Assembly (NCBI RefSeq): GCF_004745865.1
Contig: NZ_SRKZ01000004.1
Coordinates: 1-64,000 of the forward strand
Origin: Hymenobacter wooponensis
Lineage (GTDB): Bacteria; Bacteroidota; Bacteroidia; Cytophagales; Hymenobacteraceae
Length of the DNA: 64,000 nucleotides
Direction of reading: 5' to 3'
In this document: positions 1 through 42,722 of the stretch, piece by piece
How positions within the stretch are numbered: the stretch's first letter is position 1
Layout: every line of letters begins with the position of its first letter
Program-made: the position numbers and the translations under genes
The notes under the pieces: model-generated
The model's database searches: none
What the model saw: the letters and a program-made list of their open reading frames with translations, nothing else
What the model was told of the DNA's origin: nothing

Positions 1-121
<121 letters not shown>

Positions 122-373
122 GTATAATGTTCTACACTAGCCCGAAGGCTAGCTGATGTCGAGTGCAATCGCCGGCTCGTATTGACGAGCTGTTATGTGT
201 GTTCGTTTTCGTTACGCTTATGAGTCCTTATTGTGATGCTCTCTTGCGAGAGTGTCACACCCATATTGTCTTTCCAATCATTCAAAGAACGTCTGCTTTC
301 TCTCGTTTGAGAAGGCGTCGTGACTACTCATCTAGTAGTCGGCGGCTTTCGTTTGCCGTGCTTCGCTGCGAAG
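122..373 (-). other. 16S rRNA leader region
   Basis: This stretch lies between the promoter-proximal TAnnTTTG box and the 16S 5' end, so it should be the precursor-rRNA leader. A short stem (CTAGC/GCTAG) sits near 137-153. It is probably part of the processing structure, but the pairing partner downstream of 16S is outside the window. The open reading frames that cross it have no family resemblance and are treated as chance. Confidence 0.6.
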
Positions 374-380
374 CGGGCGA

Positions 381-412
381 CAAAGGTACTAACTCTTTTT
401 CTTCCGGCCAAA
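381..412 (-). promoter_or_regulatory. rRNA promoter P1 (gene-proximal)
   Basis: On the minus strand TACCTTTG (381-388) matches the Bacteroidota -7 consensus TAnnTTTG. A TTTG -33 element lies at 409-412, with a 20-nt spacer. The start of the transcript is GC-rich and can fold as GCTTCG/CGAAGC just downstream. It is one of the repeated promoter units of this leader. Confidence 0.75.
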
Positions 413-476
413 TTCCCAAGTGAAAAACTTTTTCACTTTTTCGTCTGTCCTACTCGCTTCCGATTGAAGCGGGCTG

Positions 477-508
477 CAAAGATACTGCTTGTTTCTTCGC
501 TTTTGCAA
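477..508 (-). promoter_or_regulatory. rRNA promoter P2
   Basis: On the minus strand TATCTTTG (477-484) is a perfect -7 box, with TTG at 506-508 as -33 element and a 21-nt spacer. The initial transcript runs into CGCTTC-N5-GAAGCG, a hairpin also present after P4. Confidence 0.75.
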
Positions 509-583
509 CTCCGAGAGCAAAAAAACTTCTTCACTTTCTTCGTTTCCCGTGCCCTAGGCCACTTTCTGGCCTCAAGCGGGGTG

Positions 584-613
584 CAAAGTTACAAAGCTTT
601 TTCGAACTAACAA
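584..613 (-). promoter_or_regulatory. rRNA promoter P3
   Basis: On the minus strand TAACTTTG (584-591) is a perfect -7 box and TTG (611-613) is the -33 element after 19 nt. The downstream sequence CACCCCGCTT matches that of P4. Confidence 0.75.
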
Positions 614-676
614 GCGAAGAGAGAAAAACTTTTTCGTCGACTTGTTTGCGGTAGCGCTTCCGACTGAAGCGGGGTG

Positions 677-684
677 CAAAGGTA
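677..684 (-). promoter_or_regulatory. rRNA promoter P4
   Basis: On the minus strand TACCTTTG (677-684) is a perfect -7 box, followed by GCACCCCGCTTC and a GAAGCG hairpin arm as in P2. I see no good TTG at the expected -33 distance, so this unit may be weaker. Confidence 0.6.
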
Positions 685-770
685 CGCAGAGGGTTTCTGC
701 TTTTCCTAGTACTTACTGCAACTTTCTTTTCGCCTCGTTCGTAGCCCGCCTCCGTTCGATTTGGGAGTGC

Positions 771-800
771 AAAAGTCAGACTTCTCTTTCGCTTTTGCAA
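771..800 (-). promoter_or_regulatory. degenerate rRNA promoter P5
   Basis: On the minus strand GACTTTTG (771-778) departs from TAnnTTTG only in the first base. A TTG -33 element lies at 798-800 after a 19-nt spacer. It keeps the roughly 95-nt register of the other units and may be a decayed copy. Confidence 0.45.
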
Positions 801-1115
801 GCCCACCGAAGAAAATTTCAGAGGCCGCATAGCAAACTTAGCGCCCTGTTTCATTCCGTAGGCTGTGGCATAACTACTTATGCAGAGCAGTTAGTTCACG
901 AAAGGATGAAAAAAGATTGTTCATGTGTCGAGAGGCCTGAAGCTGGCCCTAAAAGCCATAATGTCCTCCAATAATAGCTACATAAGACCAGCCTACTACT
1001 TTGGAAGCATATCGAATTAACTAAGGTCTAGAAGGTGTATGAACTACAGGTATCCGAGGTAAGTAATTAAGCTCCTTATATAATGGGTGTTGAAGCGGAC
1101 GATAAATGGTGGCAT

Positions 1116-1164
1116 ATAAATAGCTGTAGGTACTACAAGCATTGTAGTACCTACAGCTATTTAT
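1116..1164. terminator. perfect 23-bp hairpin
   Basis: Arms 1116-1138 and 1142-1164 are perfect reverse complements around a 3-nt loop. There is no strong T-run on either side and no gene ends nearby. It resembles the terminator hairpins elsewhere in this window, but it sits alone between the rRNA promoters and mtaB, where it could insulate the two. Confidence 0.6.
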
Positions 1165-1410
1165 GTTTCCTTATTTAAAAGAATATCCTGTAGTAGCCGC
1201 TAACTCATTCTACACTGTGAAAACCACTAACATTTGAAGTTGAGTTAGTAGAAATTCAACTCTACTGGCTTTGCTGTGTTAACTTTGTAGAGGCAGAGTA
1301 TAGTAGTTTCTCATTTGGCCTTACTACTCCTTATATATAGGAGTTATGAACCTGAACGAATATCTGTCTCTTACTGGAGAGGCCTAGTATGTTTCGCTAG
1401 GCTGTAGTAG

Positions 1411-1427: not shown

Positions 1428-2768
1428 ATGGAAAAGAGGAAAGTTGCCTTTTACACGTTGGGCTGTAAGCTCAACTTCTCTGAGACTTCTGCTATAGGCC
1501 GGCAGTTTGAAGAGAGTGGCTTCGAGAAGGCGGCCTTCGAGGATGCCGCGGATATCTACGTTATTAACACGTGCTCAGTAACGGATCATGCCGACCGGAA
1601 GTGCCGTAAGGTGGTAAAGGAAGCACTTAAGCACAACCCCGAGGCTTTTGTAGCTATTGTGGGCTGCTACGCTCAACTCAAGCCACGAGAAATTGCTGAA
1701 ATACCTGGCGTTCATGCTGTGTTGGGGGCTGCTGAGAAATTTCAGTTAGTAGAGACATTAGCAGGGTTCCAGAAACCTGCTGCCGGACAACCAGGCCACG
1801 TGTTTGCCTCCCCCATCAGTGAAGCCACAGAATTTCATGCGGCCCACAGCTATGGAGATCGAACTCGCACGTTTCTGAAAGTACAGGATGGATGTGACTA
1901 CTCCTGTTCTTTCTGCACTATACCGCTAGCTCGTGGTAATAGTCGCTCCGATTCTGTGCAAAGCGTAGTAGAGCGCGTGCAGAAACTAGCTGAAACAAGC
2001 GTCAAAGAAGTAGTGCTGACCGGTGTAAACTTGGGTGACTTTGGTTTACAGGGGCCAGAGCGCGAGCGGCGGGAAAACTTTTACGACTTAGTGCAGGCGC
2101 TGGATGAAGTAGAAGGCATTGAGCGGTTTCGAATAAGCAGCTGTGAGCCCAACCTATTGTCTGATGAGATAATTAGGTTTGTAGCTCGCTCTAAGCGGTT
2201 TATGCCACACTTCCACATTCCGCTACAATCGGGGTCTAACAAGATTCTGGGGTTGATGCGCCGCCGCTACCGCCGGGAGCTGTATGCTGAGCGAGTGAAG
2301 CTTATCAAAGAAGTTATGCCCCATGCTTGCATTGGAGTAGACGTTATTGTTGGCTTTCCAGGAGAAACAGAGGAGGAGTTCCTTACTACGTATCAGTTTC
2401 TGAATGACCTTGAGGTAAGCTATTTGCATGTTTTCCCTTACTCTGAGCGAGAGAACACACTAGCTCCTACCCTACCTGGACGCGTGCAGGACCGCCACCG
2501 GCATGAGCGCACAACGCAATTACGTAGTCTATCAGAAAAAAAGAAGCGACACTTCTACGAGCAGCATGTAGGCCTAGAAACGGCTGTGCTTTTCGAAGAC
2601 GACGTAACGAATGGACAAATGGAAGGTTTTACCCCCAACTATATTCGTGTAACTGCCAAGTATGATCCGCTATTGGTAGGGGAGCTAAAGCACTTACGTC
2701 TGAGCTCTGTGAATTCGCAGTGCTTAATGGAGGCTGAAGAGCTAGGCATTGAGGTGTTTCAACATTAA
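1428..2768 (+). CDS. mtaB: tRNA t6A37 methylthiotransferase MtaB
   Basis: MtaB is a radical-SAM enzyme that converts t6A to ms2t6A at position 37 of ANN-decoding tRNAs in the cytoplasm. The 446-residue product has the family length. The N-terminal methylthiotransferase domain begins with 'TLGCKLNFSE' and has further Cys at 'NTCSVTDHAD' and 'VGCYAQ' for the auxiliary [4Fe-4S] cluster. The radical-SAM motif CDYSCSFC gives Cys156, Cys160 and Cys163. The 'LGCKLNFSE' start and the NTCSVT stretch favour MtaB over MiaB, whose gene is at 22077. The ATG is preceded by AGGAGG. The gene stands alone and ends just before a 32-bp perfect hairpin. Confidence 0.9.
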   Translation: MEKRKVAFYTLGCKLNFSETSAIGRQFEESGFEKAAFEDAADIYVINTCSVTDHADRKCRKVVKEALKHNPEAFVAIVGCYAQLKPREIAEIPGVHAVLGAAEKFQLVETLAGFQKPAAGQPGHVFASPISEATEFHAAHSYGDRTRTFLKVQDGCDYSCSFCTIPLARGNSRSDSVQSVVERVQKLAETSVKEVVLTGVNLGDFGLQGPERERRENFYDLVQALDEVEGIERFRISSCEPNLLSDEIIRFVARSKRFMPHFHIPLQSGSNKILGLMRRRYRRELYAERVKLIKEVMPHACIGVDVIVGFPGETEEEFLTTYQFLNDLEVSYLHVFPYSERENTLAPTLPGRVQDRHRHERTTQLRSLSEKKKRHFYEQHVGLETAVLFEDDVTNGQMEGFTPNYIRVTAKYDPLLVGELKHLRLSSVNSQCLMEAEELGIEVFQH

Positions 2769-41922: not shown

Positions 41923-41953
41923 TTGCACAGGTGAAAGCAGCCCTCTACTTTTG
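41923..41953 (+). promoter_or_regulatory. promoter of tRNA-Asp copy 1
   Basis: TTG (41923-41925) and TACTTTTG (41946-41953) are -33 and -7 elements with a 20-nt spacer. The tRNA begins 46 nt after the -7 box. The layout and flanking bases match copy 2. Confidence 0.75.
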
Positions 41954-41998
41954 CATCACAATAACGGAAAGCACACGGCTTTCGAGTTAGCGTTAACC

Positions 41999-42072
41999 GG
42001 TTCGGTAGTTCAGTTGGTTAGAATGCCGCCCTGTCACGGCGGAGGTCGCGGGTTCGAGTCCCGTCCGGACCG
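41999..42072 (+). tRNA. tRNA-Asp (GTC), copy 1
   Basis: The 74-nt sequence folds as a cloverleaf: acceptor GGTTCGG/CCGGACC, D-loop with AGTTCAGTTGGTTAGA, anticodon loop CTGTCAC with anticodon GTC, and GGTTCGAGTCC in the T arm. CCA is not encoded. It is transcribed from the promoter at 41923 and ends at the hairpin at 42074. Confidence 0.97.
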
Positions 42073-42073
42073 C

Positions 42074-42108
42074 AAAGGCCCTTCAGATTCTTCTGAAGGG
42101 CCTTTTGC
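42074..42108 (+). terminator. terminator of tRNA-Asp copy 1
   Basis: Arms 42074-42087 and 42092-42105 are 14-bp perfect complements followed by a T-rich stretch. Confidence 0.85.
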
Positions 42109-42132
42109 TTTTCTACCCTCTTTCCTCCGGCT

Positions 42133-42368
42133 CGCCTGGCCTACGGCGTTACAGGTACTTTGCAGGAGGTGGCTTCTTATTTTGTTATGACTTGCTGCCC
42201 TCCTTATTGGGAACAGCCAGCACATGGTACCCATTCTTTACTCTTTCGCACCAGCGCATTTGCCTTGAATAGACTGAAGACGAAAAATATTTTCAGAATC
42301 TATTCTCTTTAGTAACAGATCAGTAGGCGCAAAAAAGCGCCTTTAAAGCCCACCAACGCAGATTTTTG
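42133..42368. other. spacer between the tRNA-Asp copies
   Basis: This stretch is unrelated to the repeats and has no gene. It is AT-rich after 42240. Confidence 0.5.
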
Positions 42369-42400
42369 TTTGCACAGGTAAAATCGACCTTCTATATTTG
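42369..42400 (+). promoter_or_regulatory. promoter of tRNA-Asp copy 2
   Basis: TTTG (42369-42372) and TATATTTG (42393-42400) with a 20-nt spacer. The bases around the -33 element (TTTGCACAGGT) are the same as in copy 1. Confidence 0.75.
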
Positions 42401-42445
42401 CATCACAATAACGGAAAGCACACGGCTTTCGAGTTAGCGTTAACC

Positions 42446-42519
42446 GGTTCGGTAGTTCAGTTGGTTAGAATGCCGCCCTGTCACGGCGGAGGTCGCGGGT
42501 TCGAGTCCCGTCCGGACCG
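42446..42519 (+). tRNA. tRNA-Asp (GTC), copy 2
   Basis: It is identical to copy 1 over all 74 nt, with anticodon GTC. The leader and the terminator hairpin (42521-42552) are identical as well. Confidence 0.97.
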
Positions 42520-42520
42520 C

Positions 42521-42555
42521 AAAGGCCCTTCAGATTCTTCTGAAGGGCCTTTTGC
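42521..42555 (+). terminator. terminator of tRNA-Asp copy 2
   Basis: It has the same 14-bp stem and T-rich tail as copy 1. Confidence 0.85.
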
Positions 42556-42722
42556 TTTTCTACCCTCTTCCTCCGGCTGCCCTAGGCCTATAAAAGCAGC
42601 CTTGACAATCAGCGACTTGCTGACCTTTTTTATAGCATTAAGGCCTCCTGTTTCCTGTCATGCTCACATCATGTTGAAGATGTAGGTTTGATAACACTTC
42701 ACTGTTACCAAACTCCCCTCCC

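Follow-up and report, generated by a model that had tools for sequence, protein, structure and literature searches.

Tandem promoters in front of ribosomal RNA operons are already known. In Bacteroides thetaiotaomicron, which belongs to the same phylum as Hymenobacter, Mastropaolo and colleagues are said to have described in 2009 two tandem promoters with -7/-33 boxes, about 150 bp apart, before the 16S gene. The E. coli rrn operons carry the tandem promoters P1 and P2 before 16S, with an A+T-rich UP element and a G+C-rich start, in the sections of PMC4696680 and PMC7822876 that describe them, the latter placing the UP element of the rRNA promoters at -60 to -40. In the rrn passages of PMC10218544, the number of tandem promoters at mycobacterial rrnA varies by species, with five in M. 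chelonae, and operons of one genome differ, M. kumamotonense having two promoters at rrnA and one at rrnB. The housekeeping promoter of Bacteroidota (sigma-ABfr) is given in the promoter sections of PMC6847099 and PMC7366714 as a -7 box TAnnTTTG plus a -33 TTG, and the same part of PMC6847099 places the -7 box of F. johnsoniae at -12 to -5, followed by 4 or 5 nt to the start. The phylum has an unusual housekeeping sigma, and its control of ribosome production is little studied within the literature searched.

A predicted promoter array before a 16S rRNA gene

The window, a 64,000-nt stretch of Hymenobacter wooponensis DNA, opens with the 5' end of a minus-strand 16S rRNA gene whose mature first base lies at about position 123 (Rfam RF00177 match). 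Upstream of this gene lie what are very probably five promoters serving a single rRNA operon, each predicted to be used by the housekeeping RNA polymerase of Bacteroidota (sigma-ABfr type). The promoters, numbered P1 to P5 from 16S outward, lie 258-654 nt upstream of 16S, all on the 16S strand, and their predicted starts use the box-to-start spacing borrowed from the F. johnsoniae section of PMC6847099. The parts of the array are listed here.

1-123, minus strand: 5' end of the 16S rRNA gene (Rfam RF00177, 95.2 bits, model 1-130); the gene exits the window and the contig start
282-290, minus strand: leader word GTTCTTTGA, between the last promoter and 16S; possible boxA-type antitermination site
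381-388, minus strand: P1 -7 box TACCTTTG; matrix 33.8 bits, rank 2; predicted start near 376-375
409-411, minus strand: P1 -33 TTG, 23 nt upstream of the P1 box
415-434, minus strand: P1 UP-like A-tract/T-tract block, from letters and position class
477-484, minus strand: P2 -7 box TATCTTTG; matrix 21.5 bits, rank 4; predicted start near 472-471
506-508, minus strand: P2 -33 TTG, 24 nt upstream of the P2 box
511-530, minus strand: P2 UP-like block, from letters and position class
584-591, minus strand: P3 -7 box TAACTTTG; matrix 36.2 bits, rank 1; predicted start near 579-578
611-613, minus strand: P3 -33 TTG, 22 nt upstream of the P3 box
618-637, minus strand: P3 UP-like block, from letters and position class
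677-684, minus strand: P4 -7 box TACCTTTG; matrix 21.1 bits, rank 5; predicted start near 672-671
711-730, minus strand: P4 UP-like block, weaker, AAAAGAAAGTT, from letters
770-777, minus strand: P5 box GACTTTTG, first T replaced by G; matrix 30.7 bits, rank 3; predicted start near 765-764
798-800, minus strand: P5 -33 TTG, 23 nt upstream of the P5 box, by eye
804-823, minus strand: P5 upstream A/T block, from letters; differs among paralogues

An earlier note on this DNA had proposed four or five tandem rRNA promoters, a reading that is well supported as a prediction from the sequence, with five sites rather than four. Its exact TANNTTTG boxes lie on the minus strand at 381-388, 477-484, 584-591 and 677-684, with the spacings of 96, 107 and 93 that it had given, and the A/T tracts that it saw repeated before the boxes do recur, at a fixed distance from them. 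The one-base-variant fifth box also exists (GACTTTTG), but at position 770 rather than 771 and at a spacing of 93 rather than 94. A TTG stands 22-24 nt upstream of three of the four perfect boxes and is missing at 677, again as described; the fifth box has its own TTG, 23 nt upstream by eye, so that the element is present at four of the five sites. P1 to P4 (TACC, TATC, TAAC, TACC) fit TAnnTTTG with no G at either n position, and P5 breaks the -7 box rule at the first T only, where G replaces the nearly invariant T-12. The P5 box is without its first T in each of the four rrn leaders recovered from the genome and in the three leaders of a second species (G112), and P5 is probably a weak promoter.

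The four mechanical open-reading frames overlapping the leader matched no Pfam family. Between the rRNA leader and the next gene lies an inverted repeat (window 1103-1177; 36 nt, 83%, 3-nt loop), likely a terminator or a repeat element, and a Radical-SAM/UPF0004 protein of the tRNA methylthiotransferase type is encoded divergently from the rRNA operon (window 1428-2768, plus strand).

Scan of the window with an extended-promoter matrix

The box by itself proves nothing, since TANNTTTG occurs 35 times in the 64-kb window against 31.4 expected from shuffles, and counting it alone as a test of the array was dropped. Because the eight-base box is too common alone, an extended-promoter matrix of 72 positions was trained instead, using 120 distinct rrn-leader promoters from other families only, with zero sequences from the genus Hymenobacter or its family. 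Across both strands of the window, P3, P1, P5, P2 and P4 took ranks 1-5 (36.2, 33.8, 30.7, 21.5 and 21.1 bits); over 20 one-strand shuffles the same matrix reached at most 12.0 bits. The next distinct sites, at 8.2 and 4.9 bits, precede tRNA-Asp genes at 41999 and 42446; these form a tRNA-Asp (GTC) gene pair (window 41946-42560, plus strand), 447 nt apart, in which promoter and terminator are duplicated. A further box at 833 (TAAGTTTG) was rejected as a promoter, with a matrix score of -22.1.

Promoter anatomy and its conservation

We aligned 222 distinct genus units and 181 units from other groups on the box, and as these were picked by the rule TTG plus box, only the remaining parts count as news. 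The aligned units consist of an A-tract/T-tract block, a T-rich -33 stretch whose final G is some 20 nt from the box, then the box and a CAnYCC-like stretch, in place of which P1 has TCGCCC. Matches to the E. coli UP consensus start, at their peak, 42-43 nt upstream of the box in each of the four taxonomic groups, above composition shuffles. On the F. johnsoniae scale, as set out in the promoter section of PMC6847099, this UP-like block begins near -55, within the span that the UP element occupies in E. coli rRNA promoters, and the predicted transcripts begin inside the C run; the C-rich CAnYCC would lie at the predicted start. Each of the five sites looks like a Bacteroidota housekeeping-sigma promoter, with its UP-like block, -7 box and C-rich start, and with the TTG in all except P4.

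Conservation is concentrated in the boxes. The 14-nt cores of P1-P5 are identical to those of the second species (G112) at 63-64 of 70 positions, against 132-133 of 178 in the linkers, and the UP-like blocks (68-76 of 100) are no better than the linkers. When the two full leaders of H. wooponensis are compared, the UP-like blocks agree at 77 of 100 positions and the linkers at 160 of 178, and the P5 upstream block shares 8, 14 and 13 of 20 positions with the three paralogues in the same genome. Shared ancestry of the leaders explains part of this conservation. Downstream of the last strict promoter, TTCTTTGA is present in 78 of 78 genus leaders, at a median position of -166, and GTTCTTTGA is boxA-like.

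Promoter number in other rRNA leaders

Alignment with the other rrn leaders of the same genome, which the earlier note had put forward as a check, found the array in all four leaders recovered, two of them truncated by contig ends. The two that reach 16S have five sites each, whilst the two that end at contig ends inside the array retain P5, P4, P3 and all or part of P2; by DNA search the paralogous leaders are 88-92% identical. An Rfam SSU search of the whole genome gave no match, probably because contig ends interrupt the 16S copies.

The number of promoters changes from operon to operon and from species to species, a point that the earlier note had wished to see checked: by the matrix, 78 leaders from 35 Hymenobacter genomes hold 1-6 promoters (one promoter in 1 leader, two in 11, three in 30, four in 23, five in 9 and six in 4), and 66 of the 78 have three or more. 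Operons of one genome differ in promoter number in 19 of the 27 genomes with two or more leaders. The same scan gave 0 matches in 44,966 bases further upstream of the genus leaders and 0 on the reverse strand. These leaders are not a random sample: most were taken from genomes that are complete or in long contigs, out of 120 searched, 90 of which gave a match. The spacings within genus arrays cluster at 90-110 bp (128 of 196); they show little helical phasing (coherence 0.24 at 10.5 bp, n=150), and none is claimed. On G119 contigs C2 and C7, which match Hymenobacter volaticus plasmids, two rRNA operons (L046, L047) have two promoters apiece, where the chromosomal G119 leader that was fetched has three, and H. 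tibetensis too has 16S-like DNA on a plasmid record.

Two or more promoters per rrn leader are common across the sampled phylum. By the TTG-plus-box rule they occur in 73/78 genus, 24/29 other-genus, 19/39 other-family and 23/38 class/phylum leaders, which become 71/76, 21/24, 19/39 and 20/31 when identical leaders are counted once and four same-order rows are taken out. Further upstream (at most 700 nt each) the rule finds, in the same order, a mean of 0.01, 0.31, 0.15 and 0.16 sites per leader. The four same-order rows (L189, L190, L196 and L204), included in the class/phylum set of this count, were excluded from the alignment, matrix-training, inverted-repeat, TTCTTTGA and UP-match analyses, and three loci stand in duplicate within that set (L192/L218, L205/L219 and L207/L220). 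Leaders shorter than 500 nt were left out of the TTG-plus-box count (L140, L145-L147, L150, L191, L193, L197, L200, L202, L203, L206, L209, L210, L214 and L215), and L037 and L038, whose contigs stop short of 16S, out of both this and the matrix count. Two extended boxes close together occurred in 113 stretches among 84,980 genomes; among the 80 of these 113 that are listed, 73 are named Hymenobacter, 6 Pontibacter and 1 is a MAG of another name. The short contig L278, of the MAG Candidatus Crickella, has the tandem pattern and is possibly misbinned.

The extended box at other ribosomal genes

The extended box TANNTTTGCANYCC occurs 26 times in the H. wooponensis genome, against 1 for a reversed control pattern, with 10 of the 26 sites in rrn leaders and 16 elsewhere. 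Outside rrn, six sites score at least 10.5 and all lie before ribosomal-protein or tRNA-Trp/secE/nusG genes: L31 (10.5), L17 (11.3), tRNA-Trp/secE/nusG (17.1), S21 (23.3), L33 (24.4) and L3 (27.1), the L31 and L17 scores being below the best shuffle (12.0). That a matrix trained on rRNA promoters finds ribosomal genes points to a shared ribosome-gene promoter type. Behind the ten sites scoring 5.1 or less, at seven of which the check covered frames of at least 80 amino acids, no ribosomal-protein or tRNA gene was found; the genes that follow such sites include those for a release factor, a thioredoxin, an oxidoreductase, a PUA-like-domain methyltransferase, NIF3, DUF1572 and an ATPase-gene1 protein, whilst one site falls within a sensor-kinase gene, one lacks an 80-amino-acid frame nearby and one has an unmatched frame only. 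A small DUF4295 protein is encoded directly after L33 under the ribosome-type promoter (L266:634-795).

It is possible, and we propose it only tentatively, that Bacteroidota have a ribosome-regulon promoter form, TAnnTTTGCAnYCC plus an UP-like block, serving rRNA, tRNA and ribosomal-protein genes, and that lineages tune rRNA output by the number of copies stacked per rrn operon (1-6 in Hymenobacter).

History of the array and alternative readings

The earlier note had also read the array as serial duplication of one promoter, which stands in so far as P1, P2 and P3 resemble one another in their upstream blocks: each of their pairs shows likeness beyond local composition (z 3.1-3.6), and the core repeat is 68-90% identical over 31 nt. 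Outside the core, however, pairs with P4 or P5 share less (P4-P5 2.6, P2-P4 2.0, the rest 1.8 or lower, with the P5 anchor one base off, -663 for -662), and for 172 of 268 genus units the closest counterpart in another genome sits at the same position (67.8 on average and at most 95 in shuffles), so the units are related but the array is old and they have diverged. Similarity within arrays (4.36) is about that between the same positions of different genomes (4.33) and exceeds that between different positions (3.39). A process of the kind envisaged is evident in another family of the order, where L177 (G319) has five near-identical units 111-113 nt apart before 16S; among five arrays tested it alone has strong duplication over the whole unit, with 6/6 pairs of its four testable units passing in both upstream block and spacer, and it is a clear recent tandem duplication. 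That recent serial duplication of one promoter unit built the array in the present lineage is nonetheless unlikely, and we infer that the array came from old duplications that later diverged, with copy number changing operon by operon.

Were P1 or one other promoter the only active one, the rest would be decaying duplicates kept by gene conversion among the rrn copies. The altered P5 box in all four paralogues found and the absence of a -33 TTG at P4 agree with this, and paralogous leaders that are 88-92% identical could carry neutral copies along; yet the P1-P5 cores are kept better than the linkers when set against another species, P2 and P3 have every element, with P3 scoring highest, and leaders with three or more promoters prevail in the genus (66/78), which makes a lone active promoter quite improbable. 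A 5' hairpin at each start, formed by a GCTTC...GAAGC inverted repeat and governing transcript stability or escape, would fit the predicted folding of P1-P4 at this point and an excess of perfect inverted repeats of 5 bp directly downstream of the box, present in 53 of 215 genus units (shuffled mean 18, maximum 27) and in 17 of 62 units from other groups (3.6 in shuffles). Three quarters of genus units, however, are without such a repeat, the folding z-scores of P1-P5 are weak (-1.85, -1.20, -2.30, -0.25 and +1.30), and such repeats are yet more frequent in the genus at 40-72 nt after the box (110/215); we regard this role as decidedly improbable. The recurrence of an A-tract/T-tract block with each unit and the 128 of 196 spacings at 90-110 bp could also suggest an array whose main role is DNA architecture or protein binding (A-tracts, a regulator or a polymerase-holding region), with the boxes secondary. 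Such a role is very improbable indeed, as in every group the distance between A/T block and box is constant, the conserved part is the boxes and not the blocks, and single copies of this extended box precede ribosomal-protein genes.

Proposed function and comparison with known systems

As a battery of five promoters, the array could work as follows. A single promoter needs roughly -60 to +20, and the 93-107 bp spacing would pack the promoters nearly as tightly as this allows; since that is about the room for one promoter and its upstream block, several polymerases could load on the one operon simultaneously. Each transcript would start at its C-rich run and read through the downstream promoters into the shared leader and then 16S. 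The last 250 nt would be common to all transcripts, and GTTCTTTGA there may load antitermination factors. Most initiation would come from P1-P4, with P5, its first box base altered, contributing weakly; an upstream polymerase may block the promoters downstream of it, so not all need be used at once. Less firmly, the C-rich start region may confer a joint growth-rate response with ribosomal-protein and tRNA promoters, probably via (p)ppGpp and a DksA-like protein. A DksA/TraR-type finger protein (35.9 bits) and a RelA/SpoT domain (127.9 bits) are each encoded once in the genome, and the putative stringent control of the array that the earlier note had suggested is plausible.

Arrays that differ by operon and by species offer a natural series for asking whether promoter number sets rRNA output, and also whether rRNA, tRNA and ribosomal-protein genes are linked through the start region that they share. 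Among the literature matches listed, there was nothing on tandem rRNA promoters in Hymenobacter or on a TAnnTTTGCAnYCC ribosome-gene box; this is weak evidence, and the survey across the phylum and the ribosome-gene box are possibly unreported.

Within the same phylum, B. thetaiotaomicron reportedly has two promoters about 150 bp apart, whereas H. wooponensis has five at 93-107 bp. The E. coli rrn operons, in the sections of the sources cited above, share with the array the tandem placing before 16S and the A+T-rich upstream element (UP-like in the array), but have two sigma-70-type promoters and Fis sites, in contrast to five promoters here (six in some relatives) of the TTTG/TAnnTTTG type. 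Mycobacterial rrnA, as described in the rrn passages of its source, is alike in its variable promoter number and has other boxes, the Hymenobacter counts running from 1 to 6. Relative to the sigma-ABfr housekeeping promoter as outlined in the promoter sections cited, the Hymenobacter rRNA sites share the -7 box and -33 TTG and add an UP-like block and CAnYCC. The Hymenobacter array is a larger member of this known class of tandem rRNA promoters, with Bacteroidota boxes.
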